A DNA stretch of 64,000 nt from Pseudomonas cannabina (lineage in GTDB: Bacteria > Pseudomonadota > Gammaproteobacteria > Pseudomonadales > Pseudomonadaceae), in NCBI RefSeq assembly GCF_900100365.1, contig NZ_FNKU01000001.1, positions 1,922,001 through 1,986,000 of the forward strand. The letters are read 5' to 3'. Every line of letters begins with the position of its first letter. The first letter of the stretch is position 1. Shown here piece by piece: positions 10,816 to 35,126 of the stretch. The notes under the pieces are model-generated. The model ran no database searches and was not told the DNA's origin. It saw only the letters and a list, made by a program, of their open reading frames with translations. Position numbers and translations under genes: made by a program.

Positions 10816-11134
10816 GTTCGTCAAGAACGCTTGAGAAAAACGTTGCCAGGGACGGCAACCTTGAAAAAAACCTTCCGTACGTCGCAACAGAGGAACTGAA
10901 ACCCTGCATTTGGCCACTGACGCTCCATACTTCATCCATAAGCTGACGATTGCGCTGATCGACCGCAGGTCACAGGCGCTCTTGGCCCTGCTGACGTACC
11001 ATCGGGCCTGAAGCTCGACAAAAATGAACTTTTTATTACAAATCAATGACTACAGCTGACTGCCCTTGGGTCTCAAGTTCACGAAGTCCTTGCAGATATT
11101 GATGGCAACGGACGTTTTAACAGGTGAACGAACT
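10816..11134. other. Gene-free stretch upstream of Nudix gene
   Basis: About 320 bp with no convincing coding frame. Its only clear content is the hrp-box-like sequence at 10892-10920, about 215 bp before the Nudix start, leaving a long leader of unknown role. Confidence 0.6.
10892..10920 (+). promoter_or_regulatory. Candidate HrpL-dependent promoter (hrp box)
   Basis: GGAACT at 10892-10897, 16 bases, then CCACTGA at 10914-10920. The known hrp box is GGAACC-N15/16-CCACNNA; this copy differs only in the final base of the -35 element. It points towards the Nudix gene at 11135. From memory, published HrpL regulons of P. syringae include a MutT/Nudix gene, which fits, but I could not check this. 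Confidence 0.6.
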
Positions 11135-11497
11135 ATGAAACAACGAGCGACAGTCATCTGCAAACGTGACGGCCAAATCCTCTACGTGCGCAAACCGAAG
11201 TCCAGGTGGGCATTGCCTGGCGGCAAGATCGAGTCTGGCGAAACGCCTGCCCAAGCCGCAATGCGCGAGCTGAGCGAAGAAACAGGGCTGGAAAACCTTG
11301 ATCTCTCGTACCTTGCTGTCTACGAGAAAGATCAGGTGACTCACTATGTCTTCGTGACGCAGGTGCCCAGCTCCATCGAAGCATCGCCGCAGAATGAGAT
11401 CTCCGCCTGCAAGTGGCTCGCGCCGAAGAACCTCGGTGATCTGAAAGCCAGCAAGGCAACCAAAACCATCGTCAAGTCACACGCCCGACAGGCCTGA
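11135..11497 (+). CDS. Nudix hydrolase
   Basis: 120 aa pyrophosphohydrolase of the MutT/Nudix fold, hydrolysing a nucleoside diphosphate linked to another moiety (substrate unknown). The Nudix box G-x5-E-x7-REL-x-EE-x-G-L is complete at about residues 30-52 (GKIESGETPAQAAMRELSEE then TGL). I chose the ATG at 11135 because the conserved N-terminal strand begins there; an earlier in-frame ATG (11102) would add 11 residues. A hrp-box-like promoter lies upstream, so it may be virulence-regulated. No N-terminal type III signal is obvious, so secretion is not implied. Confidence 0.88.
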   Translation: MKQRATVICKRDGQILYVRKPKSRWALPGGKIESGETPAQAAMRELSEETGLENLDLSYLAVYEKDQVTHYVFVTQVPSSIEASPQNEISACKWLAPKNLGDLKASKATKTIVKSHARQA

Positions 11498-12687: not shown

Positions 12688-12982
12688 GTGACGCTCCGCG
12701 TGACACAGCGGTTCTGCGGTGTCAGTGATGTTTGTTTGTGGCCCAGGTCACCTTTGCGCCCTTACGGCGCCCTACTTTGAGGGACCAAAGTAGGCAAAGT
12801 CCCAGCTCCGTTTCCGGCCCGACTTCGTCGGGTTCCTTCGCCCTGTCACTGATCCGGCGGCCGCCGCAACGGGCCATCCTTGGCCCGGATGCGGCTTGCT
12901 CGGCGTCCTGCCTCGCATCCCCCGGATCAGCGCCAGGACTCAGCCATCACTTACGTCGCACTCTGCGTTGTCAGTGCCATCG
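12688..12982. repeat. 295-bp interspersed direct repeat, copy A
   Basis: Nearly identical, without length difference, to 13076-13370 (offset 388 bp). It contains internal palindromes such as CTACTTTGAGGGACCAAAGTAG and GCCCGACTTCGTCGGG. It begins about 6 bases after the reductase stop codon. Open frames across it appear to be chance frames of the repeat. No transposase is encoded, so it looks like a non-autonomous or REP-like element. Confidence 0.8.
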
Positions 12983-13075
12983 TGGTTGAAAAGCACATCA
13001 AAAGCATTTCGGTGGCAACTGCGTGGTGGCAAAACATGCACTATCGTGCCGATGCTCCGCGTCGGCATGCCTTTC

Positions 13076-13370
13076 GTGACGCTCCGTGTCACACGGCGAT
13101 TCTGCGGTGTCAGTGATATTTGTTTCTGACTCAGGTCATCTTTGCGCCCTTACGGCGCCCTACTTTGAGGGACCAAAGTAGGCAAAGTTCCAGCTCCGTT
13201 TCCGGCCCGACTTCGTCGGGTTCCTCCGCCCTGACACTGATCCGGCGGCCGCCGCAACGGGCCATCCTTGGCCCGAATGCGGCTTGCTCGTCGTCCTGCC
13301 TCGCATCCCCCGGATCAGCGCCAAGACTCAGCCGTCACTTACGTCGCACTCTGCGTTGCCAGTGCCATCG
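13076..13370. repeat. 295-bp interspersed direct repeat, copy B
   Basis: Second copy of the element at 12688-12982. The about 93-bp spacer between copies includes a further short palindromic motif (ATGCTCCGCGTCGGCAT) that resembles the GACGCTCCGCGT core inside the repeats. Together the two copies fill most of an 879-bp gene-free interval before the tRNA. Confidence 0.8.
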
Positions 13371-13500
13371 CGACAAAAAAGCGCTTTTATCTATGTGCCG
13401 TGATTACGGGCACAGCATAACGTTGTACCGCGACGGCTATGTGACGCCGAGCGTCGCGGGATGCGTAGCAATGCAGGGTATCGGTACGAAAGTCGCCAAC

Positions 13501-13534
13501 AAAAAAGGGCCAACCTTTCGGTTGACCCTTTTTG
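13501..13534 (-). terminator. Terminator downstream of tRNA-Val copy 1
   Basis: A stem with arms GGGCCAACC / GGTTGACCC (one mismatch), TTTC loop, flanked by A and T runs on both sides. It lies just past the tRNA 3' end on the minus strand. Confidence 0.7.
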
Positions 13535-13561
13535 TTACCGCCCAGCAGAGCGGATTTTGTT

Positions 13562-13638
13562 TGGTAGGCGCGATTGGACTCGAACCAACGACCCCCACCA
13601 TGTCAAGGTGGTGCTCTAACCAACTGAGCTACGTGCCT
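13562..13638 (-). tRNA. tRNA-Val (anticodon GAC), copy 1
   Basis: 77 nt including an encoded CCA end. Read on the minus strand it starts AGGCACGTAGCTCAG, has anticodon stem CCACC/GGTGG around loop TTGACAT (anticodon GAC) and T-arm GTTGG/CCAAT with loop TTCGAGT. The acceptor stem AGGCACG/CGCGCCT has an A-C mismatch at pair 5-68, present in both copies. Confidence 0.95.
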
Positions 13639-14081
13639 GCTGTGGGTCGGCATTCTACGGATATTCGATTACCTGTCAAATGCTTTTTTGCAGTAACTCT
13701 CTGAATACGCGAATTTTTTAGGCTCGACGTCAGAACTCTGCCTTGATCAGGCGGCGTCAGAAATCTCGTTGGTCCTTTCCGTACGCAAATCAAGCGACGC
13801 CCTGCGCACCCAGCTTTACGATGAGAATCTTACAAAACCCCAACCTAGCAAATTTACTAGTGTACTGTTTTCGAAAAAACCAGCTACTGACGAACGGAAA
13901 ATTCAAATTTTATCAATAACTTAGTTTGTAGGTCATGGGTAAATAATTTCGCAAACAGTACACTAGTATCACTCATCGCCATGCAGTTCTAACCTGACTT
14001 ACATACAAACACCTCGAACGTCCAACGCAGATATTTATGTTCGAGCACATTTATATTTAACAAACCACTCAGTTAAGCCAT
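13639..14081. other. Low-GC spacer between tRNA-Val copy 1 and the ubiquitin-like gene
   Basis: About 440 bp, visibly AT-richer than the surrounding chromosome. No coding frame is convincing. It holds the 21-bp inverted repeat pair at 13856-13967, then an AT-rich run containing a TATATT box at 14052-14057, 25 bases before the ubiquitin-like ATG. No clear -35 box, hrp box or Shine-Dalgarno sequence was seen. Confidence 0.6.
13856..13967. repeat. 21-bp inverted repeat pair bounding 70 bp
   Basis: The left arm at 13856-13876 and the right arm at 13947-13967 are inverted copies with one mismatch in 21 (core ACTAGTGTACTGTTT). The enclosed 70 bp is AT-rich. It could be a miniature terminal-inverted-repeat element, a recombination site or a paired operator. 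It lies 115 bp upstream of the ubiquitin-like gene inside the low-GC insert. Confidence 0.8.
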
Positions 14082-14303
14082 ATGATAATTCACATACAAC
14101 AATTCATAGGCGGAAAATTTCCGCTCGAAGTAGAAAACAGCGACACGATCGATAACGTGAAAGCCAGGATACAGGACGAGAAGGGTTTTTTGCCTGATAA
14201 CCAACGACTTATATTTGCAGGTAAGCAGCTGGAAGATGGACGAACGCTGGCTGATTACAACATCCAGATCGGAAGTACGCTGCAGTTGGTTTTTAAACTC
14301 TGA
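14082..14303 (+). CDS. Ubiquitin-like protein, eukaryote-type, lacking the C-terminal Arg-Gly-Gly
   Basis: 73 aa that align without gaps to residues 1-73 of eukaryotic ubiquitin; I count 48 identities (about 66%). Residues 41-56 and 58-62 are identical, including the surface Ile44 and Lys48; Lys27 and Val70 are kept. Lys6, 11, 29, 33 and 63 are changed (Q, G, R, E, I), Leu8 is Phe. The chain ends at Leu73 with TGA, so the Arg-Gly-Gly needed for E1 activation and conjugation is absent. GC is about 43% by my count and 5 of 9 Ile codons are ATA, rare in pseudomonads, which suggests horizontal transfer. No E1, E2, E3, protease or type III signal is evident nearby. It might act by binding ubiquitin-recognising host proteins; that is inference. 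Weak ribosome-binding site. Confidence 0.93.
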
Positions 14304-14396
14304 GTTGGCCCCCTGTAAAGCTCATGTATTGAGCTATAGGGTGGGAGTTTATACGCCTTCGCGCCGGAGAAATCAGGCCTTGAAAAAACACGTCAA

Positions 14397-14431
14397 CAAA
14401 AAAGGGCCAACCTTTCGGTTAGCCCTTTTTT
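14397..14431 (-). terminator. Terminator downstream of tRNA-Val copy 2
   Basis: Hairpin with A-rich left flank, TTTC loop and T-tract, in the same relative position as the copy 1 terminator. On the plus strand it could also end the ubiquitin-like transcript. Confidence 0.7.
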
Positions 14432-14457
14432 CACCGCCCAGCAGAGCGGATTTTGTC

Positions 14458-14534
14458 TGGTAGGCGCGATTGGACTCGAACCAACGACCCCCACCATGTC
14501 AAGGTGGTGCTCTAACCAACTGAGCTACGTGCCT
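14458..14534 (-). tRNA. tRNA-Val (anticodon GAC), copy 2
   Basis: 77 nt, identical over the mature sequence to the copy at 13562-13638, including the encoded CCA and the A5-C68 acceptor-stem mismatch. The 5' flank (GGGTCGGCATTTTACGG) differs from copy 1 by a few bases. Confidence 0.95.
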
Positions 14535-14716
14535 GCTGTGGGTCGGCATTTTACGGACATCCAACTGCCTGTCAATCTGTTTTTATCCTAAGCCCATGAA
14601 TTACAGTCCTTTTTGTTAAAAGGCAGGTCAGTGCTGTTTTCGTGTGTGGCTGGCAGAGGCTTAGTATCTCGGGTACGATCAGCGCCATCGTCAAGAATAT
14701 TAAACGGAGTCTCAGG

Positions 14717-16000
14717 ATGGCGAACACGCCCTACCCGCAGTCCTATTACGCTGCCTCGGCCAATCCCGCGCCAGAACGGCCCGCTTTGCAGGGCGAGGTC
14801 GAGACGGACGTGTGCATCATTGGCGCTGGCTACACGGGTTTGTCCAGCGCGCTGTTCCTGCTGGAGAACGGATTCCGGGTCACGGTGCTGGAAGCCGCCA
14901 AAGTCGGCTTTGGCGCCTCGGGGCGTAATGGCGGGCAGATCGTCAACAGTTACAGCCGTGACATCGACGTGATCGAGCGCACGGTCGGCCCGCGTCAGGC
15001 GCAGCTGCTGGGGCAGATGGCATTTGAAGGTGCGGCCATCATTCGTGATCGGGTTTCCCGTTATGGCATTCAGTGCGACCTGAAGGACTGTGGCGTGTTT
15101 GCTGCGCTGACCAGCAAACAGCTGGCGCATCTGGAAGCGCAGCAGCGCCTCTGGGAGCGTTACGGCCACAGCAAGCTGGAGCTGATGGACAAACGCCGCA
15201 TCAATGAGGTGGTGGCCTGCGATCAATACATCGGCGGTTTGCTGGACATGACCGGTGGCCACATCCACCCCCTCAATCTGGCGCTGGGCGAAGCGGCTGC
15301 CGTCGAGACACTGGGCGGCACGATCTACGAGCAATCTGCAGCGATCCGCATCGAGCGCGGCGCCAACCCGGTGGTCCATACCGCACAGGGCAAGGTCCGG
15401 GCGAAGTTCATCATTGTGGCGGGCAATGCCTACCTTGGTAATCTGGTCCCGGAGCTGGCGGCGAAATCGATGCCATGCGGTACTCAGGTGATCACCACTG
15501 AACCGTTGAGCGATGAGCTGGCGAAAACCCTTTTGCCGCAGGATTACTGCGTCGAAGACTGCAATTACCTGCTGGATTACTACCGCCTCAGCGCCGACAA
15601 GCGCCTGATCTTCGGCGGTGGTGTGGTCTATGGCGCAAGAGACCCGGCCAACATCGAGGCGATCATTCGACCGAAGATGCTCAAGGCGTTCCCGCAGCTC
15701 AAGAACGTGAAGATCGACTATGCATGGACCGGCAATTTCCTGCTGACCCTGTCGCGCCTGCCGCAGGTCGGACGGCTCGGCGAGAACATTTATTATTCAC
15801 AGGGCTGCAGCGGCCACGGCGTCACCTACACGCACCTGGCCGGCAAGGTGCTGGCCGAAGCATTGCGCGGCCAGGCCGAGCGTTTCGATGCGTTCGCTGA
15901 CCTGCCGCACTATCCGTTCCCTGGCGGCCAGATGCTGCGCACGCCGCTGACTGCGCTGGGCGCCTGGTATTACAGCCTGCGGGATAAACTGGGTTTCTGA
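14717..16000 (+). CDS. FAD-dependent amine oxidase (PuuB/DAO family)
   Basis: 427 aa flavoprotein of the D-amino-acid/glycine oxidase superfamily, closest in motif to gamma-glutamylputrescine oxidoreductases. The N-terminal dinucleotide motif IIGAGYTGLSSALFLLENG begins near residue 35, followed by GASGRNGGQIVNSY, a PuuB-type flavin-contact block. The C-terminal FAD motif is NIYYSQGCSGHGVTYTHLAG. The ATG at 14717 is preceded by GGAGTCTCAGG. Oxidation of a polyamine conjugate or N-methyl amino acid is likely; the exact substrate is unknown. A hairpin terminator follows. Confidence 0.85.
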   Translation: MANTPYPQSYYAASANPAPERPALQGEVETDVCIIGAGYTGLSSALFLLENGFRVTVLEAAKVGFGASGRNGGQIVNSYSRDIDVIERTVGPRQAQLLGQMAFEGAAIIRDRVSRYGIQCDLKDCGVFAALTSKQLAHLEAQQRLWERYGHSKLELMDKRRINEVVACDQYIGGLLDMTGGHIHPLNLALGEAAAVETLGGTIYEQSAAIRIERGANPVVHTAQGKVRAKFIIVAGNAYLGNLVPELAAKSMPCGTQVITTEPLSDELAKTLLPQDYCVEDCNYLLDYYRLSADKRLIFGGGVVYGARDPANIEAIIRPKMLKAFPQLKNVKIDYAWTGNFLLTLSRLPQVGRLGENIYYSQGCSGHGVTYTHLAGKVLAEALRGQAERFDAFADLPHYPFPGGQMLRTPLTALGAWYYSLRDKLGF

Positions 16001-21392: not shown

Positions 21393-22248
21393 ATGTCTAA
21401 CGAACCCTCCTCCAGCGAATCGCCCGCGACCACCGAGGCATTGCAGCTCAACAGCACGGAAATCCGCATTCTTGGCTGCCTGATCGAGAAGCAGGCGACC
21501 AACCCCGAGACCTACCCGCTGACCCTTATCGCACTGGTGCTTGCCTGCAACCAGAAGACCAGCCGTGATCCGGTCATGAACCTGACCCAGGGCCAGGTCG
21601 GTCAAAGCCTGCGCGCGCTGGAAGGACACGGCCTGACGCGTCTGGTGATGGGCAGCCGTGCTGATCGCTGGGAGCACAAGGTCGACAAGGGTCTTGAGCT
21701 GGTTCCTGCACAAGTGATCCTCACCGGTCTGCTGTTGCTGCGCGGGCCGCAGACCGTCAGTGAACTGCTGACCCGCAGCAATCGCATGCACGACTTCGAG
21801 GACAGCGAGCAGATCGTTCACCAACTCGAACGCCTGATCAGCCGCGGGCTGGCGGTGCTGGTGCCACGCCAGTCCGGCCAGCGTGAAGACCGTGGTTCCT
21901 GCACAAGTGATCCTCACCGGTCTGCTGTTGCTGCGCGGGCCGCAGACCGTCAGTGAACTGCTGACCCGCAGCAATCGCATGCACGACTTCGAGGACAGCG
22001 AGCAGATCGTTCACCAACTCGAACGCCTGATCAGGCGCGGGCTGGCGGTGCTGGTGCCACGCCAGTCCGGCCAGCGTGAAGACCGCTACATGCACCTGTT
22101 GGGTGATCCGCAAGACAGGCAAGAGCTTCTCGCGACTCGCCAGCAACCGCCGGAACGCGGCGCAGCGAATCCGGTCGCCAGTCAACGCATCGATGAACTG
22201 GAAGCGCGGGTTGCCGCACTGGAAGAACGCCTCGCCAGGCTGGAGTGA
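21393..22248 (+). pseudogene. yceH: YceH-like (DUF480) gene disrupted by a 193-bp tandem duplication
   Basis: The intact gene would encode about 220 aa of the UPF0502/YceH family (two winged-helix domains and a C-terminal coil). Bases 21700-21892 are repeated head-to-tail at 21893-22085 with one mismatch. Because 193 is not a multiple of three, translation leaves frame after residue about 167 and ends at 21956. The second copy continues in another frame to the native C-terminus at 22248 ([14 protein letters not shown]). Removing one copy restores a continuous frame. The start ATG at 21393 follows AGGGAAGCTTC. Confidence 0.9.
21700..22085 (+). repeat. 193-bp perfect-class tandem duplication inside yceH
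   Basis: Two adjacent 193-bp units, 21700-21892 and 21893-22085, differing by a single base (GATCAGC versus GATCAGG context). Near identity shows a recent event. Such duplications can collapse by recombination, restoring the gene. Confidence 0.95.
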
Positions 22249-32756: not shown

Positions 32757-33242
32757 ATGATTGAACCGAGTATCTACAAAGAAGTCATGGCGTCATTCCC
32801 TTCTGGCGTGACGATTGTCACCACACTGGACCCCGAGGGCAATCTGGTCGGCATCACCGCCAGCGCGTTCAGTGCGCTGTCCATTGACCCGGCGCTGGTG
32901 CTGTTCTGCCCCAACTACGCGTCCGACACTTATCCGGTGCTGCGCGACAGCAAGAAGTTTGCGATTCACCTGTTGTCTGCCGATCAGCAAGTCGAGGCCT
33001 ACGCGTTCGCCAGCAAGGGCAAAGACAAGACCAAGGGCATCGAATGGCAGTTGAGCGCGCTGGGCAACCCGTTGCTGGACAAGGCCACGGCGATCATCGA
33101 GTGCGAATTGTGGCGCGAATATGACGGCGGTGATCACGCGATCATCGTCGGCGCGGTGAAAAACCTGATTCTGCCGGCGATCCCGGTAACCCCGATGATC
33201 TATCACCGGGGCAAGATGGGGGCGCTTGCGCCGATCGTCTGA
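32757..33242 (+). CDS. Flavin reductase (HpaC/split-barrel type)
   Basis: 161 aa. The FMN-binding split-barrel motif FPSGVTIVTT near residues 12-21 and GITASAFSALSIDP are conserved, with the C-terminal HAIIVGAVKNL block. It supplies reduced flavin to a partner monooxygenase. No such monooxygenase lies in this operon, so the partner must be elsewhere or lost. I start at ATG 32757 behind GAGGCCACTGCG. Confidence 0.87.
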   Translation: MIEPSIYKEVMASFPSGVTIVTTLDPEGNLVGITASAFSALSIDPALVLFCPNYASDTYPVLRDSKKFAIHLLSADQQVEAYAFASKGKDKTKGIEWQLSALGNPLLDKATAIIECELWREYDGGDHAIIVGAVKNLILPAIPVTPMIYHRGKMGALAPIV

Positions 33243-33447
33243 GGCTGCGGCGGGGGCTTTTGGTGGTGGCAGGCATCGGCGTGATAAACTCGGCCGCGAC
33301 CCGGGTTCAAAGCTCCGGGGCATGCAGCAGCCCGCGCGTTTCGCGGGCTGACGACATGAGCAGGGCGTTGGTTACGATCATGTCTACCGTCATGTTTTTT
33401 ACACCGCCAGCCTTTTTACATTGACAGCCCAATACCGAGCACACCCG

Positions 33448-35126
<1,679 letters not shown>

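Follow-up and report, generated by a model that had tools for sequence, protein, structure and literature searches.

What ubiquitin does depends on its tail, and the question raised by this locus is what a ubiquitin that lacks the tail is doing in the chromosome of a Pseudomonas. The gene lies in a 64,000-nt stretch of Pseudomonas cannabina DNA, which is analysed here as a whole and is referred to as the window.

A ubiquitin that ends at Leu73

The open reading frame at 14082-14303 (plus strand) runs from ATG to TGA and encodes 73 amino acids. Upstream of the ATG the frame is open for just 7 codons and contains no start codon, so that there is no other in-frame start. The product matches the Pfam ubiquitin family PF00240 (E-value 5.6e-24, residues 5-72) with 84.1 bits against a curated cut-off of 25.4, and the closest PDB sequences are ubiquitins. 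Aligned with human ubiquitin without gaps it shows 48 identities in 73 positions, exactly the number counted by hand in the preliminary description, while the maximum among 5000 shuffles was 16; residues 41-56 are identical at 16 of 16 positions, including Ile44 and Lys48, as had also been noted, and Lys27 and Val70 are retained as well. Twelve of 14 core positions are identical, the other two being the hydrophobic swaps V5I and I13F. These data support the assignment of the window gene as a true member of the ubiquitin family. Five lysines are replaced (K6Q, K11G, K29R, K33E and K63I). The loss of Lys63, Lys11 and Lys29 had been described as biased, and all three are indeed gone from the window protein, but the pattern is not common to its relatives, given that K63 is retained in the corresponding proteins of two other genomes (G018 and G370, below).

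The protein ends VFKL, with Leu73 as its last residue, and therefore has no Arg74-Gly75-Gly76, in agreement with the earlier reading that the conjugation tail is missing. The C-terminal Gly-Gly of a conjugatable ubiquitin is thus absent, which, according to established ubiquitin chemistry, excludes activation by E1. The GC content of the gene is 0.432 compared with 0.594 for the window, and five of its nine Ile codons are ATA, bearing out the figure of about 43% and the frequent ATA codons reported before. No second ubiquitin match was detected in the window's genome (G000) at an E-value of 0.001.

Signals for expression, export or partnership are sparse around the gene. The promoter-like sequence that scores best in the orientation of the gene overlaps its ATG, and no convincing promoter was found upstream. 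A good Shine-Dalgarno sequence (AGGTGA) precedes the homologous genes of G018 and G370, and no clear ribosome-binding site was seen in G000 or in a fourth genome, G716. By eye, there is no signal peptide of the kind that marks the secreted ubiquitin BfUbb of Bacteroides fragilis, and no spare segment ahead of the first strand to act as a signal for type III secretion. No hrp box with up to 2 mismatches was found in the 443 nt upstream of the window gene or ahead of its counterparts in G018, G370 and G716. Neither E1, E2 nor protease genes lie beside the window ubiquitin, whose neighbours are the tRNA-Val genes and, by eye, NUDIX-like, epimerase-like and oxidoreductase-like genes, and no gene for a partner was found next to it. 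A conjugation operon was rejected on the absence of such neighbours and of any PADLOC match for six stand-alone proteins; the E2 profile PF00179 was found in 0 of 9 genomes, a result that shows little, since 0 of 14 controls matched either.

The slot between tRNA-Val genes

The ubiquitin gene is flanked on both sides by tRNA-Val(gac) genes predicted by ARAGORN on the opposite strand, a setting that the preliminary description does not mention. The features of the locus are as follows; many of the neighbouring gene names, including the NUDIX-like one, were assigned on reading the translations and are to be taken as presumptive.

11066-11497, plus strand: NUDIX-like gene on the other side of the slot, with a counterpart next to the slots of G018, G370 and G716
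13502-13688, unstranded: direct repeat copy 1, 187 nt, 87% identical to copy 2, containing the upstream tRNA-Val
13562-13638, minus strand: tRNA-Val(gac), upstream copy (ARAGORN)
13725-14397, unstranded: 673-nt stretch that corresponds to 20 nt in the relative G056 (alignment with G056)
13857-13966, unstranded: MITE-like repeat of 110 bp, inverted at its ends, which precedes the ubiquitin gene (repeat search and genome comparison)
14082-14303, plus strand: 73-residue tail-less ubiquitin open reading frame (list of open reading frames, Pfam, alignment to human ubiquitin)
14398-14584, unstranded: direct repeat copy 2, 187 nt, containing the downstream tRNA-Val; the copies lie 896 nt apart
14458-14534, minus strand: tRNA-Val(gac), downstream copy (ARAGORN)
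14717-16000, plus strand: flanking FAD-dependent oxidoreductase-like gene, which we take to be puuB-like and use as a yardstick of rate (list of open reading frames)

Of 95 genomes compared, G056 matches this locus best: positions 32794-33018 of its contig C307 align with positions 2-225 of the query (95%) and positions 33039-33941 with positions 899-1801 (85%), leaving a nearly empty site. This insert, together with the low GC content and a patchy distribution, supports the acquisition of the ubiquitin gene by transfer that the preliminary description had suggested. Eukaryotic contamination, which had been named as a possible refutation, is ruled out by the position of the gene on a 5.8-Mb contig of a Pseudomonas genome (6.39 Mb in 9 contigs) and by the ubiquitin genes that three other genomes carry in this slot.

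In these three genomes, G018, G370 and G716, the ubiquitin gene likewise lies between two tRNA-Val(gac) genes and is surrounded by the same oxidoreductase-like and NUDIX-like genes, giving four slot carriers with G000. The inserts of G000 and G716 are homologous across about 510 nt (73%), and the MITE-like repeat is missing from the latter. The G716 protein has four residues inserted and ends PLDGPISP, so that the 73-residue end is not common to all four slot members. In 15 further Pseudomonas loci, taken from locus matches and all without a ubiquitin match, two tRNA-Val(gac) genes were present in ten, spaced by 159 to 12,942 nt, and a single one in five, indicating that the slot is variable. 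G370 carries a phage-type integrase gene in an island immediately outside the slot.

Several other features of these regions deserve mention. The MITE-like element has identical copies elsewhere in G000 (C2:176368-176477 and C1:5642196-5642305), its inverted ends lie near CTAG, and it appears to have been active recently. Upstream of the first tRNA-Val there are two further direct repeats (12700-12994 and 13088-13382; 295 nt, 93% identical), and at 21393-22248 two overlapping open reading frames, in what we presume to be a YceH-like gene, share a long near-identical stretch that suggests an internal tandem duplication. The tRNA slot of G716 also contains an acetyltransferase gene (L158:9691-11405) and, by eye, a degenerate additional tRNA-Val.

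Ubiquitin genes in Pseudomonas and other collections

Three overlapping draws of genomes, with one genome per species, were searched. The genus draw gave matches in 14 of 398 genomes; a family draw searched with PF00240 also gave 14 of 398, 13 of them above the cut-off and 10 in the window's genus; and a second genus draw gave 15 of 397, with G085 the sole match that the other two draws had not given. The union comprises 20 genomes of the genus, from which G701 was dropped as below the cut-off and probably a chance match. Six of the remaining 19 carry intact stand-alone genes whose stop falls exactly 73 codons past the aligned Met (G000, G018, G370, G126, G339 and the very divergent G085, with 17 identities to human ubiquitin). 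Upstream in-frame starts are absent in G000 and G126 and present in G018, G370, G339 and G085, for which the full length is therefore assumed; the C-terminal end is not an assumption. One more is stand-alone with the four-residue insertion (G716), two are stand-alone with Gly-Gly (G245, ending RGG, and G228, ending KGGL), two have an extra N-terminal domain and no Gly-Gly end (G722 and G105), and five are fusions of an exported type (G166, G187, G325, G092 and G628; G166, the one checked for an autotransporter domain, contains it). The remaining three genes are broken (G016, G726 and G033). Stand-alone tail-less ubiquitins thus recur in Pseudomonas and the window gene is not unique; ubiquitins are moreover widespread in bacteria (below). 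Among the matches listed in literature searches on bacterial ubiquitins and P. syringae ubiquitin genes, which include PMC3352274, PMC5705921 and PMC12751079 in excerpt, there was no stand-alone Pseudomonas ubiquitin.

In G722, G726, G033 and G228 (L159, L160, L024 and L022) a whole or fragmentary ubiquitin gene occupies a second recurring site, flanked by what are presumably fructose-bisphosphate-aldolase-like and polysaccharide-lyase-like genes; three small neighbours at this site, a pair from L160 and a single one from L024, gave no Pfam match.

In the wider class, one of 368 other genomes matched, with an open reading frame in which a signal-like stretch precedes the ubiquitin. Plasmid records gave 2 matches in 72,556 (Ruminococcus albus, 61%, and Pseudoalteromonas, 42%) and phage records 0 in 50,697, on which counts a plasmid or phage source was rejected. 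Viral contigs gave one locus and then six, including the first, none of which resembles the window's slot by eye. Also by eye, L143, L162, L163 and L164 look like contigs of large eukaryotic viruses and L161 and L165 are phage-like: in the tailed-phage-like L165 (7962-8702, plus strand) a ubiquitin domain is fused ahead of a stretch resembling the product of the preceding gene, and in L161 (2471-3007 and 4811-5137) a ubiquitin with a signal-peptide-like start and the ending RGG lies near a cyclophilin-like gene.

A scan of genome contigs yielded 107 relatives, the best 80 of which (L028-L107, bacterial and archaeal, many from metagenome-assembled genomes) were examined. In 65 of these, by a crude test (an 11-residue stretch with mean hydropathy >2.0 in the 40 residues ahead of Met1), the ubiquitin Met1 is closely preceded by a hydrophobic stretch that resembles a signal. 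In nearly all 80 the frame runs well past the domain, ending within 80 residues of the domain start in six (L028, L030, L046, L065, L079 and L103), among which L103 is truncated at the edge of its contig and the partial match in L030 was misread. These loci apparently represent a widespread type of exported, ubiquitin-headed protein. A Pseudomonas member (L015:9369-10670, minus strand) combines a signal-like N-terminus, a ubiquitin domain and an autotransporter beta-domain, and its ubiquitin is probably displayed on the cell surface; open reading frames similar by eye occur in L016, L019, L020, L144 and L146.

In a tree of 40 rows and 73 columns, in which 4 of 37 inner branches were starred and the bootstrap was still unsettled, the four slot proteins cluster with a single ubiquitin from an Acidobacteriaceae metagenome-assembled genome that ends RGG (94/86, an unstarred branch), and all five fall in a wider fork with human ubiquitin. 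The resolution of this phylogeny, a check proposed earlier, is poor, and the source may have been either a eukaryote or another bacterium.

Rates of change, possible roles and known systems

The pairs G018/G370 and G000/G716 were used to estimate omega (NG86, with bootstrap intervals and Fisher tests), giving 0.38 (0.15-1.06, p 0.039) and 0.58 (0.33-1.05, p 0.10), respectively. The dN/dS check suggested in the preliminary description thus gives values below 1 for both pairs, with intervals that reach 1. Between G000 and G018 or G370, dN is 0.39 or 0.37 and silent sites are saturated. For the flanking oxidoreductase-like gene dN is 0.015 between G000 and G716, against 0.32 for ubiquitin, and 0.010 between G018 and G370, which amounts to a 10- to 20-fold higher rate of protein change in the ubiquitin than in its neighbour. 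It is also conserved no better than the non-coding DNA of the slot: G000 and G716 differ at 63 of 219 positions in the gene and at 17 of 118 in the adjacent upstream non-coding DNA (Fisher p 0.003, the gene being more changed), an excess that is not significant when the comparison takes in all of the slot's aligned non-coding DNA (39 of 181, p 0.11), and G018 and G370 differ at 27 of 222 and 43 of 414 positions, respectively (p 0.51).

The gene is thus fast-evolving and near neutral apart from residues 41-60, which are relatively constrained. There, pN is 0.09 and pS 0.40 for G000/G716, and 0.04 and 0.35 for G018/G370, compared with 0.32 and 0.39, and 0.12 and 0.19, outside this block. Fisher p values for the block are 0.051 and 0.15 singly and 0.006 when pooled on rounded counts, all of them optimistic because the block was chosen after it had been seen. 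Ubiquitin-fold proteins are generally well conserved across 41-60, and the constraint may therefore reflect folding.

We tentatively propose, with somewhat less than even confidence, that an acquired, non-conjugatable ubiquitin has been kept, or repeatedly gained, in the slot and that, if active, it acts non-covalently in the bacterial cytoplasm. In a Pseudomonas lineage with harpin, the gene would have entered between the two copies of a duplicated tRNA-Val gene and then have been retained, or have arrived there more than once. Judging from the conservation of its core, the product would fold as ubiquitin, and as the protein ends where the folded domain ends it could be neither adenylated by E1 nor attached to anything; its 41-60 face may bind a partner that is not encoded nearby, while the remaining surface drifts or diversifies. 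Because neither an export signal nor a partner gene was seen, a non-covalent cytoplasmic protein is the most economical working model. That the 73-residue core ubiquitins of pseudomonads form a class, acting non-covalently through this face while the rest of their surface diversifies rapidly under conflict, is a bolder version that we consider rather doubtful.

A serious rival and close alternative, which we regard as quite possible, is that the gene is an acquired former ubiquitin without present function, its frame open by chance and short age. This decay would account for the omega of G000/G716 and for gene sequences that change as fast as the non-coding DNA around them or faster, and in neutral simulations of substitutions alone 12.5% of the runs with 63 changes, 30% of those with 27 and 6.9% of those with 88 kept a frame without stops; the unclear ribosome-binding site in G000, the MITE in the slot and the three broken genes fit it as well. 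Against it stand the intact frames of six stand-alone genes, the low pN of 41-60, the Shine-Dalgarno sequences and the lower omega of G018 and G370, and the failure of the G000/G716 excess to reach significance against all slot non-coding DNA.

The preliminary description had raised a host-directed role, in which a ubiquitin that cannot be conjugated, delivered into plant (or amoeba) cells, would occupy ubiquitin readers or cap Lys48 chains. Harpin matches occurred in five of seven genomes tested, namely all four slot carriers and G056, which has no ubiquitin there, making the supposed plant-associated host plausible. For this reason, and given that Ile44 and Lys48 are intact, the decoy keeps a small probability; excerpts of PMC3352274 moreover describe inhibition of ubiquitination in vitro by BfUbb. 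Delivery itself finds no support in the window protein, with neither signal peptide by eye, hrp box nor N-terminal extension, G126 and G339 have no harpin match, and divergence this rapid would be odd in the mimic of a nearly invariant host protein.

Less likely still, and in our view improbable, is a role in the counter-defence of mobile elements, as a dominant-negative ubiquitin that jams ubiquitin-like conjugation defences of bacteria. The tRNA-gene slot, the phage-type integrase in the adjacent island of G370, a Mu portal gene next to the ubiquitin of G339 and the ubiquitin domains, of other kinds, in L161 and L165 agree with this, whereas the phage records gave no match, PADLOC recognised none of six stand-alone proteins, inspection by eye showed no integrase next to the G000, G018 and G126 genes and no target system was found.

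If the non-covalent model is true, a recurring bacterial ubiquitin without tail, conjugation operon or export signal would mean that the fold by itself is of value to bacteria, and it would supply binding studies with a natural non-conjugatable ubiquitin; were the diversifying class real, a highly conserved eukaryotic protein would have been turned into a fast-evolving bacterial one. Even if it is decaying, the gene documents that ubiquitin genes have been present repeatedly at particular sites in Pseudomonas chromosomes.

Among known systems, Bub and Bil are bacterial conjugating ubiquitin-like systems with the ubiquitin fold, from which the window protein differs in having no Gly-Gly, no E1, E2 or protease neighbours and no PADLOC match. 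The window protein is probably far closer to ubiquitin itself in sequence than is Hub1, and bacteria have no spliceosome. Hub1/UBL5 is described in excerpts of PMC8431670 and PMC4141198 as a ubiquitin-like protein without a di-glycine end that acts non-covalently, and the window protein, which likewise has no such end, would work in that manner under our model. With the exported ubiquitin-headed proteins (most of L028-L107, and L015) it shares a high-identity ubiquitin domain, often without a free Gly-Gly end, but in them a signal-like stretch immediately, or all but immediately, precedes Met1 and further sequence follows the domain, while the window protein stands alone and lacks that stretch. 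BfUbb, aptly cited in the preliminary description, comes closest as a precedent for a ubiquitin that a bacterium has acquired and that has no terminal glycine. According to excerpts of PMC3352274 and PMC5705921 it is likewise encoded in low-GC DNA and lacks the terminal glycine for conjugation; it has a signal peptide and a C-terminal cysteine, where the window protein shows, by eye, no signal peptide and ends at Leu73, and it is secreted and antibacterial, inhibiting other B. fragilis strains.
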